A stretch of DNA of 64,000 nt from Sphingomonas suaedae (GTDB lineage Bacteria; Pseudomonadota; Alphaproteobacteria; Sphingomonadales; Sphingomonadaceae), in contig NZ_CP042239.1 in the NCBI RefSeq assembly GCF_007833215.1, forward strand, positions 2,108,001-2,172,000. Reading direction: 5' to 3'. Shown here piece after piece: positions 30,743 to 37,129 of the stretch. The notes beneath the pieces are model-generated. The model did not search any database. It was not told the DNA's origin and saw only the letters and a list, made by a program, of their open reading frames with translations. Within the stretch, counting starts at the first letter, position 1. Each line of letters begins with the position of its first letter. The position numbers were made by a program, and so were the translations under genes.

Positions 30743-31663
30743 CTAGCCCCGGCGCAGCTTCTTTGACAGCTTCTCCAGCCCCGCCGCCTCGATCAGCGCC
30801 TTGCCGCCCGCCACCGTGCGGTTGAACCCACCCAGCGCCGCCGTGGTCACCCGGTTGGTGAGGCTGGGGCGCAGCAGCAGCAGATCGACGCACGGCACCC
30901 CGCCGGTCGAATATTGGCGCTTGTGCTGGCCATCGCCCTCGGTGAAGTCGAACCGGGTATATTTCCCCTCCTCGAACAGGTCGCGAAACGCCTCCACCTG
31001 CAGCACCGCGCCGGGCGACAGGTCGTTGAACGCCGGGTCATGGCCGACATATTCATAGATCAGCGTATCGCCCTGTGCAGGGCAGTAGAGATAGGCGGCA
31101 GGCTCGCCCGCGATCCACAACAGCCAGGCGCGCACCGCGTCCGCCGCGCCCCGCGCCATCATGTCGCGGATGAAGTCGGGACCGGCGGGCAGCCCTTCGC
31201 CCATCAGCTTTTCCTGATAGGTGCGCAGCGCGATGCGGCGGGCGATGTCGTGAAACGCCTCCAGCTCGGCCGGGGTGCGATAGCTGCGGATGTCGAGTTC
31301 GCCGCCGGAGACCTGGGCGATCTTCTTGGCCTTGCGGCGCACCCCCTGTCGCGCATTGCCGGACAGGTTCGCCATATAGGCGTCGAAGCCGCCGGTCAGA
31401 TCGGCATAATAGCGGGTATATTTCTGCCGGACGAAGCCGATCATCCGGCCCGAAGCATAGACCATCGCCTCAAGCCGATCCTCGGGCAGCGAGGTCACGA
31501 CATAGCCATGCGCGTCGCGGGGCAGGGGCGGCAGGACGGGCAAGCGGCCTTCGCGGGCTTCATCCAGGCCGAGCGGCACGCGGACCATGTCGCGCTGCAC
31601 GGCCATCAAAGTCCGCGCGCCGATGCGGAAGTTGAGCGGGGTCGGACGGGCAGCGGCGCTCAT
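30743..31663 (-). CDS. CelD/BioF2-like GNAT acetyltransferase
   Basis: A 306-aa protein of the Acetyltransf_6 (CelD/FemAB-like) type. Seen: [20 protein letters not shown] near the start, [16 protein letters not shown] near 110, [19 protein letters not shown], then [18 protein letters not shown] and [18 protein letters not shown], the family's acetyl-CoA region. Such enzymes are linked to exopolysaccharide or cellulose acylation. Its ATG overlaps the stop of the polysaccharide deacetylase gene by four bases, so the two act together. Confidence 0.82.
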
Positions 31664-32613
31664 GCGGCGCGCTCCGACACCAGGTTCGACCAGAGCTGTT
31701 GCGCCTGACGCATCCGGGTGCGGATCAGGCTGGGTCCGAGCGGGGAGTCGGCGCGGTCGAGCGGCAGGTCCGGCAAATCGGCGAACTGCGCCGTCTCGAT
31801 CCCCCCCTTGCGCTCCGCCAGCATCGCGCAGAGCGAGTCGAAACGCTGGACATGCACCGCATTGGGCCGGGTGCCCGAACGGTTGGCCAGTTCAAAGCCA
31901 TGGCTGACGATCGTCACCGCCGCATGTCCCGCCGACACCGCATGGTCGAGCGCGTCGCGCATCTCGGCGGTTGAGAGCGCACAGATCTGGAAATGGCGAA
32001 GATGGCCGCGGACATCCTCGATCAGCGTCACCGGCACCTCGATCACGCCGCGATGTTCGACCGGGGCGATCTGGCGCGGGTTCAGGCCGATGGCGCTGGG
32101 CCAGGGATGTTCGGAGCCATTATGGCTGCTGTCATAGCGGATGCCGAGTTCGGCGAGCGCCGCCAGGGTATCGTCGCTGGCGCTGTAGCTGCCCGAGCGG
32201 AACGCGACCGGACGCGGCGCCCCGGCGGCGACCAGCAGGTCGGACGCGGCGGCGATCAGATCGCGCTGTTCGGCAAAGGTGAAGTCGATCAGTTCGAACG
32301 AGGCGGCGGCGGTGCGATCATCGTCGCGCGCAGCGGCCCAATTGGGGTGGAGGTGCAGCTGAACCTCCTGCCCCGCCTCAAGGATCGCGCCGACGACGCG
32401 CTTGATCGGATCGAGGCCATAGGCGACGGCGGGCATCGGATCGACGAAGAAGGTGGCGCGAAGGCCATGGTCGGCGAAGCGACGCAGCTGATAGCCGATG
32501 CCGACCCCGGCCGGCTCCAGCGACCGCTCCGCGATCTCCGATATCGGCAGCCCGGCGGCGTGGTGCCGCCACATCAATTCGGTATCGACGGTCAGGAAAG
32601 CGCGCGTGGGCAT
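31660..32613 (-). CDS. Polysaccharide deacetylase family protein (NodB fold)
   Basis: A 317-aa cytoplasmic or peripheral protein without a signal peptide. The N-terminal FLTVDTELMW gives the catalytic/metal Asp; QLHLHPNW near 85-91 provides the two metal His; RSGSYSASDDTLAALAELGI is motif 3; the C-terminal VSHGFEL carries the last His. This is the long-range layout of NodB-type deacetylases acting on cell-surface glycans. First gene of the two-gene unit with the CelD-like acetyltransferase. Confidence 0.88.
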   Translation of the reverse strand: MPTRAFLTVDTELMWRHHAAGLPISEIAERSLEPAGVGIGYQLRRFADHGLRATFFVDPMPAVAYGLDPIKRVVGAILEAGQEVQLHLHPNWAAARDDDRTAAASFELIDFTFAEQRDLIAAASDLLVAAGAPRPVAFRSGSYSASDDTLAALAELGIRYDSSHNGSEHPWPSAIGLNPRQIAPVEHRGVIEVPVTLIEDVRGHLRHFQICALSTAEMRDALDHAVSAGHAAVTIVSHGFELANRSGTRPNAVHVQRFDSLCAMLAERKGGIETAQFADLPDLPLDRADSPLGPSLIRTRMRQAQQLWSNLVSERAA

Positions 32614-33067
32614 GGCGGCGGCGTAACGGACAGGGGTGAAGAAATCGCAAAATGCGGCGGAAATAACTGAACGCAGACGTTCATTATGCTGACAATTCTG
32701 ACAAAATTCCCGTATGTGAAGGGTGTCGCCTGAGAGTTCAGCGCGATGGAGGCGAGCGGCGAAGGCATGGCGATGGGCATGGCGGGAGTGTAGTGATTCG
32801 GGGGCTTGTAGGACAGTCCCGGTGGATGATGTCGGAACGGCTGGCAGTGGGCGTTAGGCAGCTGGCCGAATTTGGGGTGGAGACGAAGGTGGGTTGACCG
32901 CCTCCGACACCAAAGCGGGGGATGACACCACGTCAGCTTTGCGCCCTAACATTGGTCATTAGACTGACCCTGCAAATTTCCTGAAAGCGGACCCCCGACT
33001 CCGGGGATTGGAACGTCCCGGATGATGCCTCATGGAGTATTTGGTCGGGTCCGAGTATGCCCCAACC
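32614..33067. other. Intergenic region at the left edge of the island
   Basis: About 450 bp without a supported gene. The left 100 bp is AT-rich and probably holds the promoter of the leftward deacetylase pair. From about 32780 onward the base composition changes (GGGGGCTTGTAGGACAG, CATTGGTCATTAGACTG, CTGAAAGCGGACCC), looking like degraded accessory DNA. No integrase, tRNA fragment or flanking direct repeat was found. Confidence 0.5.
32689..32708. promoter_or_regulatory. Tandem CTGACAATT / CTGACAAAATT upstream of the deacetylase
   Basis: CTGACAATT (32689-32697) is immediately repeated as CTGACAAAATT (32698-32708), 76-95 bp upstream of the deacetylase start. This AT-rich tandem could be an operator or promoter part. 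No factor is identified. Confidence 0.4.
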
Positions 33068-33541
33068 ATGGCCTTTTCGAATCCCCAAGTGTACATGGAT
33101 GAACTCGCGTCACCGCTCTGCCGTCGTTTCGAGGCGGAGCCGAGCGCCTACGAGCTCGCCATTTCAACTTGCATCATTTTGTATCACTTTGCGGACGTGG
33201 TCGCGTATGTCAGATCTAGTACTCCGCACGCGATCGCAGAGGAGATTGCCGCCCAGGTCCCTGCTTTCCACACCGTGCGGGCGATCGCGAACGCCGGGAA
33301 GCACGTGGAACTAACCCGACACCCCAAGTCTGAGCTGATCGGTCTACGTGCAGAACACCTCCTTCGTGGCAAGGGCGCGGCCTTCAGCGACGGCACCTAT
33401 TATTCAGATGGTACAACGCACTCCGACGCCCGCGAGACGGTCGTGGTCGAGACTCCAGACGGTAAGAAGCACGACGTGCTGCATGTCTGCACATCGGTGC
33501 TGGCAGCGCTGAAGGCGCACTCCGAGTTTTTCCACGTCTAG
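33068..33541 (+). CDS. Unknown protein of the island, helical N-terminal domain
   Basis: A 157-aa protein (169 aa if ATG 33032 is used). I prefer 33068 because the sequence from MAFSNPQVYMDELASPL looks like a natural start; neither site has a good Shine-Dalgarno. Residues 25-100 look all-helical and resemble small HEPN-like or contact-type domains (TVRAIANAGKHVELTRHP). The C-terminal part has GKGAAFSDGTYYSDGT and a VVVETPDGKKHDVL hairpin. It lies upstream of the OLD-family gene, same strand, 171 bp apart. Function unknown. Confidence 0.7.
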   Translation: MAFSNPQVYMDELASPLCRRFEAEPSAYELAISTCIILYHFADVVAYVRSSTPHAIAEEIAAQVPAFHTVRAIANAGKHVELTRHPKSELIGLRAEHLLRGKGAAFSDGTYYSDGTTHSDARETVVVETPDGKKHDVLHVCTSVLAALKAHSEFFHV

Positions 33542-33643
33542 GACGCTGAATGCTCAAGCGGTCGGTCGTTCAGCGCGCGACGTTGATTTCCTTCCGCTCT
33601 TTGCACTTGCTTCACCACAGGTCAGCACGTCGTAAGTCTTGCT

Positions 33644-33658
33644 GTTCGTTTTCTGTTC
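33644..33658 (+). promoter_or_regulatory. LexA/SOS box GTTC-N7-GTTC upstream of the OLD-family gene
   Basis: A perfect GTTC GTTTTCT GTTC direct repeat, the LexA operator form established for alphaproteobacteria. It lies 55 bp before the OLD gene start. A weak promoter can be drawn around it: TTGCTG at 33639-33644 and CATAGA at 33662-33667 with a 17-bp spacer, so LexA would cover the spacer. Confidence 0.6.
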
Positions 33659-33712
33659 CTTCATAGAAGTACCCGCGATCACCGCGCAGTTAATCAGCAG
33701 GGTGGGCTTGAG

Positions 33713-35677
33713 ATGAAGCTGAAGCAGTATCGGGTTCGAGAGTTCCGCAGCATCTGGGACAGCGGCCCGATTGAGGTTGACGACCAGACCACCTGCTTCG
33801 TGGGCAAGAACGAGGCGGGCAAGACCACGGTCCTGACCGCGCTCTACCGCACTAACCCGATCCGCACGGGCGACGCCGTCTTCGACGAGACATACGACTA
33901 CCCGAAGCGGGAGGTCGAAGACTACCGTTTCGCCGTCGAAAACGGGGAGCGTGAGGAGGCTGCGGTAGTCGAGTGCACCTACGAGCTGGAGAAGGACGAC
34001 CTGCTCGCGGTGGAGAACGTTTTCGGCCCCAATGTGCTCAATGGTAAGACCTTCAAGCGGACGACCTATTACGGTAACGGAAACAGCAGATATACGCTCA
34101 CGTGCGACAATGCCGCCGCGCGCAAGCACCTCGCCAGCAACCCGGCTCTTTCCGATGATCTTCGCGCTGCATTGGCGGCTGCGGCGACTTGGAAGGACTT
34201 TGCAACCGCGCTTGATGCGGTCGAAGCGACGGATGCGGTCAACGCCGTGAAGAAGCTGGTGGCGAAAGTCCGCGAGAAGGAGCTTAGCTATTACGTCTTC
34301 AACACGTTGATTTGGCCGCGCGCGCCCAAGTTCCTGTACTTCGACGAGTACTACCAGATGGAGGGGCAGGCCAACCTCAACGCCCTCATCACGCGCGAGG
34401 ACAAGGACCAGCTGCTTGACTCGGACTACCCCCTCATCGGCCTCATCAACCTGGCGCGCCTCGACCACCGCAAGCTCGTGGCCACCAACAACACGGTCGA
34501 GTTGAAAAACAAGCTGCAAGGTGCCGGGAACCACCTGACCCAGCGAATCGTCAAGTACTGGTCCCAGAACAGGCACATTCAGATGCGCTTCGACGTGCGT
34601 GACGCGAAAGTCGGTGACCCAGAGGGGATGCAGCAGGGCGTTAACGTCTGGGGCGAGGTGTACGACTCCGTGCACTGGGCGACGACGCCACTGAGCAACC
34701 GTTCGCGAGGATTTGTGTGGTTCTTCTCCTTCCTCGCTTGGTACGAGGACGTGAAGCGCCAAGGACAGAACGTCATCCTGCTGCTGGATGAACCTGGTCT
34801 GTCGCTGCACGGTCGGGCTCAAGCCGACCTGCTGCGCTACTTCGACTCGGAACTTTCGGGCCACCAGCTCCTCTACACCACGCACTCCCCGTTCATGATC
34901 GACCCTACCAAGTTTGAGCGGGTGCGTATCGTGCAGGACCTGGGCATCGACGCCCCCGAAGCGCTGCCAAAGGAGGAGGACGGAACCAAGGTGCTGGCCA
35001 ACGTCTTCGACGCCACCGATGACAGCCTGTTCCCGTTGCAGGGCGCGCTCGGCTACGAAATCCAGCAGACACTGTTCATCGGCCCCAACTCGCTGATCGT
35101 GGAGGGCGTCGCCGACATGCTCTATCTCCGCGCCGTGTCCGGCGAGCTGGAGCGCGAGGGCCGCACTGGGCTGTCGGAGCAGTGGGTCATCACCCCCGTG
35201 GGCGGTAGCGGCAAGGTGCCCACCTTCGTCGCCATGCTCGGCTCGCAGAAGGGCATGAATGTCGCCACACTGCTAGATATCCAGAACAGCGACAAGCAGC
35301 TCATCGAGGACCTCTATAAGAAGAAGCTGCTCACCAAGAAGCAAGTTTCGACCTATGCTGACTTCACGGGCACTGCCGAAGCGGATGTCGAAGACATGTT
35401 CGACCGTGCCTTCTACATCGACCTAGTGAACGGTGAGTTTGCAGGACAGCTGTCGGAGAAGATCACCAAGACCAAGCTCAACGCGAAGGAGCCGCGCAGC
35501 CTTCGAGCCATCGAGGCTTGGCTGGCTGACAACCCGATGAAGTCGGGTTCGTTCGGACACTACCGACCGGCACGCTACTTCACCGAGCAGCTCACCAAGC
35601 TGTGGCCGAAGGTGTCAGACGAGACGAAGGACCGCTTCGAGGCGGCGTTTAAGCATTTGAACGGGCTGCTGCGTTAG
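33713..35677 (+). CDS. OLD-family ATP-dependent endonuclease (AAA/ABC ATPase plus TOPRIM)
   Basis: A 654-aa protein. The N-terminal ABC-type ATPase has Walker A GKNEAGKTT at 31-39, a signature-like RSRGFVWFF, Walker B VILLLDEPG near 354-362, a D-loop SLHGRAQ and an H-loop TTHSPF near 389. The C-terminal TOPRIM domain has the Glu in VEGVADMLYL near 462 and an acidic LLDIQNSD near 520. This is the layout of OLD nucleases (P2 Old, GajA), many of which act in phage defence. No GajB-type helicase or retron reverse transcriptase is adjacent. Tyr is coded mostly by TAC, whereas neighbouring core genes prefer TAT, suggesting transfer. Preceded by an SOS-type box. Confidence 0.88.
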   Translation: MKLKQYRVREFRSIWDSGPIEVDDQTTCFVGKNEAGKTTVLTALYRTNPIRTGDAVFDETYDYPKREVEDYRFAVENGEREEAAVVECTYELEKDDLLAVENVFGPNVLNGKTFKRTTYYGNGNSRYTLTCDNAAARKHLASNPALSDDLRAALAAAATWKDFATALDAVEATDAVNAVKKLVAKVREKELSYYVFNTLIWPRAPKFLYFDEYYQMEGQANLNALITREDKDQLLDSDYPLIGLINLARLDHRKLVATNNTVELKNKLQGAGNHLTQRIVKYWSQNRHIQMRFDVRDAKVGDPEGMQQGVNVWGEVYDSVHWATTPLSNRSRGFVWFFSFLAWYEDVKRQGQNVILLLDEPGLSLHGRAQADLLRYFDSELSGHQLLYTTHSPFMIDPTKFERVRIVQDLGIDAPEALPKEEDGTKVLANVFDATDDSLFPLQGALGYEIQQTLFIGPNSLIVEGVADMLYLRAVSGELEREGRTGLSEQWVITPVGGSGKVPTFVAMLGSQKGMNVATLLDIQNSDKQLIEDLYKKKLLTKKQVSTYADFTGTAEADVEDMFDRAFYIDLVNGEFAGQLSEKITKTKLNAKEPRSLRAIEAWLADNPMKSGSFGHYRPARYFTEQLTKLWPKVSDETKDRFEAAFKHLNGLLR

Positions 35678-35899
35678 TAGTTTCTGGACGTCGGCAACGC
35701 CGGATTTGTGTTCTGAGACCTGCCAGACCGTAATCGGCCCAGAAGCTAACGGTTGGCGATCCCGGCGTCAGCGTTGGCTGAGCACCGAATGGCAGACGCC
35801 GCGCCGCTGCCCGGCTGGTGACCGCCCCCACCCCGGAACCTCCCCCGTCCCGGCGGGTTGGACGGGCATGATCGTTACGAATCCGGTCCGGAAGCCCAT

Positions 35900-37129
35900 A
35901 TGAGCCGTTGGGCATGGCTGTGGCGGTTGGTGTCGCGGCGGTTGTGGTTTCGGGCCGCCGCCTTTTCGTTCGCGGCGGCGCTGCTCGCGCTGGTCGCCCC
36001 GCTGATCGCGCCGCTGATCCCCTATGAGCTGGGGGCCAAGATCGGGGCGGACGCGGTCGACAATATCCTGGGCATCATCGCGTCGAGCATGTTGGCGGTG
36101 ACAACCTTTTCGCTGACCGCGATGGTTTCCGCCTATGGCGCGGCGACCGCCAATGTCACGCCGCGCGCGGTGATCCTGCTGCTCGAAGACACGACGTCGC
36201 AAAATGCGCTGTCCACCTTTCTGGGCGCGTTCCTGTTCGCGATCGTCGGGATTATCGCGCTTTCCACCGGTTTCTATGGCGAGCAGGGGCGCGTGTTGCT
36301 GTTCGGGGGCACGATCGCGCTGATCGTGGTGATCGCCGTCACGCTGCTGCGCTGGATTCAGCATATCGCGCTGCTGGGCCGGGTGCACGACACGATCACC
36401 CGGGTCGAGCGCGCGGCGATGGCGGCGGTCCAATCGGTTCAGCACCGTCCGCGCATCGCCGCGCTCGCCACGCCGCCGGTCCCCGCCGATGCGCAGCCGG
36501 TGCGCTGCGGGGACCGGATCGGCCATGTCACCAATATCGATCTGTCCGAGCTGGGCGAGGCGATGGCCGCGTGCGGCGGGCACGTGCATCTGGCGGTGCT
36601 TCCCGGCAGCTTCGTCGATCCGGGGCGGGTAGTCGCATGGGTCGTGGATGGCGATGAGGCGACCTGCGCTCGGGTCGCCGAGTCGATCACGGTCCAGCGC
36701 GACCGCAGCTTCGACCACGATCCGCGCTTTGGCCTGATCGTGCTGTCGGAGATCGCGTCGCGCGCGCTGTCGCCGGCGGTCAACGATCCCGGCACGGCGA
36801 TCGCGGTGCTGGGCGCGCAGCTGCGGGTGCTCCAAAAGCTGGCCGGTGCAAAGGGCGCGCCATTCGACGAACGGGTGGTGGTCCCGGCGCTGGCGATCGA
36901 AAAGCTGGTGGTGGACGCATTCCGCCCGATCGCGCGCGACGGCGCCGCCCATGTCGAGGTGGCGATGAAGCTGCAGAAGACGCTGGCGGCGCTCGGGGGA
37001 TTCGCGCCCGACTGGAGCGCGGCTGCACGCCACGCTGCGGACGATGCCCGGCACCGCGCGCGGGCGGCGCTGTCGATCGAGAACGAGCGGCTGGCGGTGG
37101 CGCGCGCGTTCGAGGACTGGCCGGAGTGA
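35900..37129 (+). CDS. DUF2254 membrane protein
   Basis: A 409-aa protein with four membrane helices in the first 150 residues (about 17-40, 55-80, 105-130, 135-155) and a soluble C-terminal domain. The pattern LGIIASSMLAVTTFSLTAM, ATANVTPRAV, FLGAFLF and the C-terminal ALSPAVNDPGTAI is characteristic of DUF2254. Function unknown. Start ATG 35900 (MSRWAWLW); a longer frame from 35858 is unlikely. It is the first core gene right of the island and converges on uvrC. Confidence 0.88.
   Translation: MSRWAWLWRLVSRRLWFRAAAFSFAAALLALVAPLIAPLIPYELGAKIGADAVDNILGIIASSMLAVTTFSLTAMVSAYGAATANVTPRAVILLLEDTTSQNALSTFLGAFLFAIVGIIALSTGFYGEQGRVLLFGGTIALIVVIAVTLLRWIQHIALLGRVHDTITRVERAAMAAVQSVQHRPRIAALATPPVPADAQPVRCGDRIGHVTNIDLSELGEAMAACGGHVHLAVLPGSFVDPGRVVAWVVDGDEATCARVAESITVQRDRSFDHDPRFGLIVLSEIASRALSPAVNDPGTAIAVLGAQLRVLQKLAGAKGAPFDERVVVPALAIEKLVVDAFRPIARDGAAHVEVAMKLQKTLAALGGFAPDWSAAARHAADDARHRARAALSIENERLAVARAFEDWPE

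Follow-up and report, generated by a model that had tools for sequence, protein, structure and literature searches.

Classes 1 to 3 of the OLD protein family are described in PMC10568477 and classes 4 and 5 in PMC12796447 (excerpts of both sources). In Class 2 the helicase gene lies downstream of the OLD gene (PMC7049728, excerpt), and isolated OLD genes have been called poorly understood (PMC13261556, excerpt). The latter excerpt also refers to a 2025 report of tRNA cleavage by P2 Old, a subject on which the excerpt of PMC12409363 mentions only an early article. Here we describe a locus with an OLD-type gene in Sphingomonas suaedae, within a stretch of 64,000 nucleotides (the window; 2108001-2172000 of the 4.15-Mb chromosome NZ_CP042239.1) to which the coordinates below refer. 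A first-pass annotation, made from the letters of the window, had placed here two open reading frames (ORFs) of 157 and 654 aa, and both were located as claimed, at 33068-33541 and 33713-35677 on the plus strand. The 654-aa protein is called OLD below, and the 157-aa protein encoded upstream of it is labelled P2, a label distinct from the name P2 Old.

With moderate confidence, the locus is read here as a mobile accessory island, holding an OLD-type exclusion gene that works alone and a separate accessory gene, P2, with a HEPN-like fold. The strongest part of this reading, that OLD is an accessory defence gene, is well supported because the gene is rare and has close relatives in Mu-like prophage contigs and on a plasmid by restriction-modification genes. 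P2 is an accessory gene, partly found in defence settings. The two genes are probably fellow travellers and not clearly the parts of one new system; that they work as one machine is possible, and the data do not require it.

The OLD-type protein and its relatives

The OLD protein (33713..35677, plus strand) was characterised from its ORF, Pfam, PADLOC, a structure profile and alignment. Pfam gives AAA_15 (7.4e-19) and AAA_21 (6e-12), both above cut-off, and the top PADLOC models are AriA (8.9e-20, with its best stretch in the ATPase part) and Old (1.5e-17). Among solved structures the profile finds Thermus OLD, AriA, PtuA and GajA, the best stretches being again in the ATPase part. The Pfam model OLD-like_TOPRIM stays below its cut-off on this protein (14.6 vs 23.2 bits) and figures among the domains precomputed for two close homologs (P0137, P0152).

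Motif search and alignment place, all on the plus strand, a Walker A motif GKNEAGKT (residues 31-38; 33803..33826), a Walker B motif VILLLDE (residues 354-360, as LLLDEP; 34772..34792) and an H-loop THSP (residues 390-393; 34880..34891). An alignment of 23 sequences, among them that of the window and the most distant at 32% identity, shows no variation in the cores of the three. The TOPRIM region, on the same strand, was read by alignment as EGVAD (E464, D468; 35102..35116), with a spacing compared with E377/D381 of the OLD protein of Thermus scotoductus (Ts OLD), and as D522-I-Q524 in place of the usual DxD (35276..35284), compared with D431/D433. It is followed by DVED (D558, E560, D561; 35384..35395), comparable to the metal-B S-x-E of Ts OLD and to the D-x-E of P2 Old. 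These equivalences are a reading of motif and spacing, not of superposed structures. Metal A of Ts OLD is bound by E377, D431 and D433 and metal B by D381, S478 and E480, and the residues tested in P2 Old are E398, D453, D455 and E402, D541, E543 (PMC7049728, excerpt). In the same alignment E464, D468, D522, D558, E560 and D561 are invariant, and the position of the second Asp of DxD, here Q524, varies in the distant kin; the full Class 1 TOPRIM set is thus incomplete. The wording OLD-type is used because DxD is incomplete and OLD-like_TOPRIM stays below cut-off. The ATPase motifs and the TOPRIM Glu of the first-pass annotation were therefore recovered, and of its Asp-rich motif all is conserved except that second Asp.

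Homologs of OLD are numerous: 7,678 of 8,000 scored candidates matched in the protein search (120 listed). Relatives at E <= 1e-60, by comparison, are found in nine of 397 genomes of the family and five of 385 of the class, and a match at E <= 0.001 in 6 of a set of 61 genomes drawn mostly from the genus and order; the window's own genome is counted in every genome tally given here. Plasmid records with a match number 88, only one of them above 60% identity, and phage records give one partial match, at 27%. Eight further viral contigs carry relatives of 32-51% identity, one of them by a short partial match only, and P2 was not found in the DNA around these relatives (one contig, L091, has no upstream DNA).

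Eight close OLD loci, of 79-100% identity, were compared (L087 and L088 repeat L040 and L041); the upstream side is readable in seven of them, as L040, on a contig with a Mu transposase and OLD at its end, begins at the OLD gene. P2 lies upstream in four of the seven, frameshifted in one, and is absent from three. These are a locus of the same genus with an IS66 element directly upstream of OLD (L035), a Gemmobacter plasmid on which other genes precede OLD and genes annotated as restriction-modification adjoin it (L039), and a Mu-like prophage in which OLD stands between Mu F-like and Mu protease genes (L041). Neighbours of OLD with a Pfam name are DUF2254 in the window, HNH in L010 and the Mu genes of L041; the others were read by eye. 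When a UvrD-like helicase or a retron was looked for beside OLD, the left gene of the window and the downstream ORF of L011 gave no Pfam match, and no Rfam match was obtained around OLD in the window.

These data bear on the alternative that the locus encodes a cellular ATPase outside defence, as the archaeal OLD-family protein Cran1, which has a cell-cycle role (PMC12796447, excerpt). Cran1 itself and the ordinary neighbours of several P2 loci speak for this alternative; it is improbable in view of the rare and patchy distribution, the prophage and plasmid contexts and a codon use unlike that of nearby genes. The GC content is 0.59-0.60 in P2 and OLD against 0.64-0.69 in six nearby genes, and Tyr is encoded in OLD by 20 TAC and 7 TAT against 9 and 41 in those genes (p = 1.9e-6). 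The different Tyr codon choice noticed at first thus holds for OLD; it does not extend to P2, which has two TAC and four TAT codons and lacks the TAC preference.

P2 and its genomic company

P2 (33068..33541, plus strand, 157 aa) was studied through its ORF, homologs, alignment, a structural model and dN/dS. Translation from an alternative ATG in frame, at 33032, would yield 169 aa; 28 of 31 aligned members begin at or reach past the Met at 33068, sharing MAFS there. Pfam and NCBIfam gave no match above cut-off, and PADLOC (E <= 1) and PHROGs gave none at all, in line with the initial view that the upstream protein is not GajB-like. One homolog is named lactam utilization protein B, and a LamB/YcsF-like identity was rejected, as the E-values (0.04 in Pfam, 0.007 in NCBIfam) lie below the cut-offs in strength.

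The best fold matches of the P2 model are HEPN toxins (8yuf, 7ae6) and the HEPN domain of sacsin (3o10), at only 6-10% identity, and the model has extra beta strands with respect to HEPN folds. No HEPN family appears among the 20 Pfam families listed for 31 P2 members (E <= 0.5), nor in NCBIfam or PADLOC for P2. The Rx4-6H motif is not present, the conserved Arg and His being spaced as R71-x7-H79; the excerpt of PMC3710099 defines Rx4-6H and also describes HEPN families with altered active sites. The alignment used for the model and searches (A1) includes one member, P0105 from L015, with an out-of-frame C-terminal end.

The P2 family is narrow. The protein search matched 129 of 202 candidates and the profile 135 of 3,986 (120 listed each), and all matches listed are 57-100% identical to P2. 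Going by the organisms that the sources name, we take every row with a named organism to be alphaproteobacterial, except P0098, named only Pseudomonadota. In plasmids it has no match among 72,556 records. P2 is present in two of 397 genomes of the family; together with the nine genomes with OLD and its prophage and plasmid relatives, this agrees with the accessory, mobile character proposed at the outset.

Fourteen P2 loci were compared, namely the window, 12 from one scan of a genome collection and one viral contig (L042); L022 is the contig of L015 and is not counted. Beside P2, OLD is intact in four loci (window, L010, L011, L020), reduced to a remnant in three (38 residues in L009, 18 in L015, an inner 60 in L016) and untraceable in seven (L012, L013, L014, L017, L018, L019, L042). 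The P2 reading frame is broken by a frameshift in L020, and in L015 by one close to the end. A leader (32931..33067, plus strand) is common to the window and eight other P2 loci, and all seven loci with OLD or its remnants are among these nine.

By profiles, P2 has as neighbours an Aga-type TIR protein (presumably of the short-Argonaute type), a C5 methylase and AIPR/MzaE in L009; an integrase, LmuA/LmuB (which we take to be Lamassu) and AbiEi/AbiEii in L017; an integrase, HipA and HNH in L010; an integrase and a TrwB-like coupling protein in L011; a MobA/MobL relaxase in L013; and an S24 repressor on the viral contig L042. The P2 locus L012 has a tRNA-Lys gene. Elsewhere the tested neighbours are PEPCK and an RsmB-type methyltransferase (L016), ETF-QO (L018), CtaA and enoyl-CoA hydratase (L019) or a hydrolase (L020). 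For these assignments, 24 neighbour entries picked for a mobile or defence-like look (one ORF twice, as L041 and L088; rlmJ of L073 and two IS66 ORFs of L035 are not counted) were submitted to Pfam, followed by ten entries from the window and loci not yet covered, one being the site content of L074; seven of the 34 lacked a match at 1e-5 (one each in L009, L012, L013 and L014, two in L011, and the left gene of the window). Seven of eight neighbour ORFs matched in PADLOC. These counts support no claim of enrichment.

Three of these settings can be recorded on their own account. In L009 (8646-9068) the 38-residue OLD remnant is followed about 0.3 kb later by the Aga-type TIR gene, as if one defence gene replaced another. 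In L013, a contig of 7,935 bases from Sphingobium naphthae with a coverage of 2153 that is probably a multicopy plasmid, P2 follows the MobA/MobL relaxase gene. In L018 (5414-5887), 12 bp separate P2 from the ETF-QO gene before it, and the end of P2 overlaps with the beginning of a gene read as ispE, an arrangement unusual for an accessory gene.

P2 is therefore the member of a tight family, partly found in defence islands, on a viral contig and by a relaxase gene, in which Pfam and NCBIfam recognise nothing above their cut-offs and PADLOC and PHROGs nothing at all. If P2 is a defence gene it adds a family, and if it cooperates with OLD it would be a new kind of OLD partner.

Linkage of the two genes and competing readings

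Aligned with L010, L011 and L020, the window shares a block that begins 89, 113 and 47 nt before P2, respectively, and ends 3-4 nt past the OLD stop codon; the DNA around the block differs between the sites. A further 48 nt or so on the right are common to L010 and L011, so the right end is not identical to the base in all pairs. Between the window and L010 and L011, dS is 0.86 and 0.75 for OLD and 1.36 and 2.25 for P2, with dN/dS of 0.05-0.08 for both genes; over all unsaturated pairs listed dN/dS is 0.04-0.10 for OLD and 0.05-0.18 for P2. Both genes are under purifying selection. L020 comes from Pelagibacterium (Devosiaceae), which we assume to belong to another order than the window's genome, and the P2-OLD unit has therefore moved between orders.

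Such a linkage would also fit a two-component OLD-HEPN defence system, with P2 as an RNA-acting effector or regulator and OLD as the sensor and ATPase, in a logic like that of GajA-GajB or AriA-AriB, and with the P2-alone loci as other uses or decay. Seven of the nine leader-bearing loci keep OLD or its remains beside P2, and the four copies with intact OLD, though at different sites, agree in gene order, orientation and right end. Moreover, judging by equal size, nine contigs besides the window's probably occur in the list of 120 OLD homologs as well as in that of 120 P2 homologs; L011 confirms this for one (86,954), and a tenth match of size (4,021) is a coincidence, as shown by L015. This two-component reading is nevertheless unlikely, as intact OLD stands beside a frameshifted P2 in L020 and without P2 in L035, L039 and L041, P2 stays intact after the erosion of OLD in L009 and L016 and shows no trace of OLD in half of its 14 loci, and a spacer of 171 nt separates the genes in place of a tight operon. 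The new two-gene system suggested by the first-pass annotation is accordingly not established: P2 is absent from three of seven close OLD loci, and OLD, intact or in pieces, accompanies P2 in seven of 14. The same annotation had held that an upstream gene linked to many unrelated neighbours would speak against it, which is the case for the P2 family as a whole; within the leader-bearing group the association persists.

The HEPN toxins among the fold matches of P2 raise another alternative, a toxin-antitoxin pair in which OLD would hold a toxic P2 in check, or P2 would restrain OLD. Each gene is apparently intact without the other, a state in which an obligate pair is not expected to survive; this explanation is very improbable and was set aside, since P2 and OLD each occur alone. 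A bolder proposal is that of a new OLD subtype, in which an OLD with a single-Asp TOPRIM and a dedicated HEPN-like P2 would form a mobile two-gene module of Alphaproteobacteria, targeting RNA or tRNA in defence, its P2 half being reusable alone in islands, prophages and mobilizable DNA; we regard it as unlikely, slightly more so than the two-component defence itself.

In the reading preferred here, of OLD working alone and P2 as a separate accessory gene, OLD would act by itself, like Class 1 OLD proteins. Its ATPase would sense some trace of phage infection and its TOPRIM region would cut nucleic acid, halting phage growth. P2, possibly carried along with OLD in one lineage, would act independently, on RNA if the HEPN fold is right.

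Several points weigh against this reading. From the sequence, it is not certain that OLD is a nuclease, as DxD lacks its second Asp; a departing TOPRIM is by itself no argument against defence because YbjD, of Class 1, gives phage phenotypes even without its TOPRIM domain (PMC13261556, excerpt). P2 resembles HEPN proteins in the fold comparison of its model alone. In at least four loci (L016, L018, L019, L020) those neighbours of P2 that were tested are ordinary genes, so the setting is not always one of defence. The linkage kept over a dS of 0.75-2.25 would also fit a working pair. Furthermore, in the P2 tree the node joining the nine leader-bearing loci has a support of 87/86, which falls short of the threshold that the tool itself sets; every shuffle clusters the labels 'OLD intact' and 'OLD remnant' at least as tightly as the tree does (500 of 500 for each), and the three labels together need five changes, as few as in 38 of 200 shuffles.

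In the same tree the label 'no OLD' needs two changes, as few as in one of 500 shuffles. The tree, in which L020 is represented by its first 100 residues and L015 by its first 142, was given a midpoint root for drawing purposes only; with a root outside the leader group it is compatible with a single joining of OLD, its total loss in L013/L014 and its erosion on three separate occasions. The natural set of loci, with the pair, OLD alone and P2 alone, makes the question of cooperation directly testable.

Flanking DNA, site and comparison with known systems

On the left, the locus is flanked by a gene read as a polysaccharide deacetylase (31660-32613, minus strand; no Pfam match at 1e-5) and, on the right, by a DUF2254 gene (ATG at 35900, plus strand; Pfam match), found at E <= 1e-60 in 30 of 101 genomes of the genus, so that this flank is not universal. 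In blastn, the stretch 32821..35830 is unlike the nearest syntenic relative, L073, whose flanks align up to 32820 and from 35831 and which holds at the same site other DNA of 1,359 bp with rlmJ (Pfam match). L074 holds a third content, with a DUF3857/TPR protein. Of the four relatives with a fetched region, two (L073, L074) are alignable to the left and right of the site, at about 80-90%, with differing DNA between, and the other two (L075, L076) on the right side only. No clean empty site can be demonstrated, because the relatives have other DNA there. As L073 and L074 each have different genes before the DUF2254 gene, the site may be a hotspot. The rlmJ of L073 has no match in the window's genome, an empty answer that alone shows nothing. 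A transposon with clean ends was also considered and rejected, as no paired terminal or target-site repeat stands out among the 20 direct families listed of at least 60 and the 25 inverted pairs listed of 111.

The odd flanking DNA noticed in the first pass corresponds to the leader, which is conserved with other P2 loci and the first 20-30 bases of which, approximately, recur elsewhere in the genome. Counted from the P2 start, its alignments with the window begin at -138 in L014, -136 in L016, -132 in L013, -127 in L015, -114 in L009, -113 in L011, -89 in L010 and -47 in L020. The leader start (32932-32963) recurs at G000:C1:1840240-1840271 and 787447-787465, the best copy matching over 32 bases at 91% (E 1.2e-5) and the others being weaker. 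The 12-mer TTTGCGCCCTAA from this start has three exact copies in the genome, and its reversed control none. The leader start thus resembles a short interspersed intergenic sequence.

The 171-nt spacer between P2 and OLD (33542..33712) has no Rfam match and no unusual fold; about 83 nt of it before OLD can be aligned in L035, a locus without P2. A non-coding RNA or retron in the spacer was rejected on these grounds, the fold being no better than that of shuffles (z 0.39). Over 32800-35900, three terminators were found against 2.4 expected, two overlapping in the spacer and one after OLD, and no sigma-70-like promoter. A small antisense frame of the spacer was judged not coding: 20 gap-free codons in 15 pairs show no third-position excess overall (82, 63 and 83 differences at positions 1, 2 and 3, sums in which an inserted codon of L020 inflates the pairs with L020). 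Its MKEQK start is present in four of the six loci examined and lost in L009 and L015; position 1 is the highest in all six pairs of the four start-bearing loci, and position 3 is highest or tied in seven of the nine others.

As regards the described systems, no description of an OLD-HEPN pair was found in the literature searched, which does not show that none exists. P2 differs from the HEPN toxins (8yuf, 7ae6) and from the HEPN domain of sacsin (3o10) in its low identity to them, its extra beta strands and its lack of Rx4-6H and of a Pfam HEPN match. With PARIS (AriA-AriB, Class 4) the locus shares the best PADLOC E-value of OLD, given by AriA; here, however, one 654-aa protein holds both the ATPase and the TOPRIM regions, and the P2 model is not of the TOPRIM type by the matches seen. 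With Gabija (GajA-GajB, Class 2) it shares an OLD protein with an adjacent gene, whereas P2 has 157 aa, lacks a PADLOC match and lies upstream, and a helicase partner of the GajB type was not encountered. Class 1 OLD proteins (P2 Old, Thermus scotoductus OLD, E. coli YbjD) have in common with the protein described here an N-terminal ABC ATPase and a C-terminal TOPRIM region, and the close relatives of the latter lie in prophage contigs. E464, D468, D522, D558 and E560 fit the catalytic positions that the excerpt of PMC7049728 gives for the Ts and P2 OLD proteins. The locus departs from Class 1 in Q524, which stands for the second Asp of DxD and is replaced by other residues in distant kin, and in the P2 gene that lies upstream in some loci.

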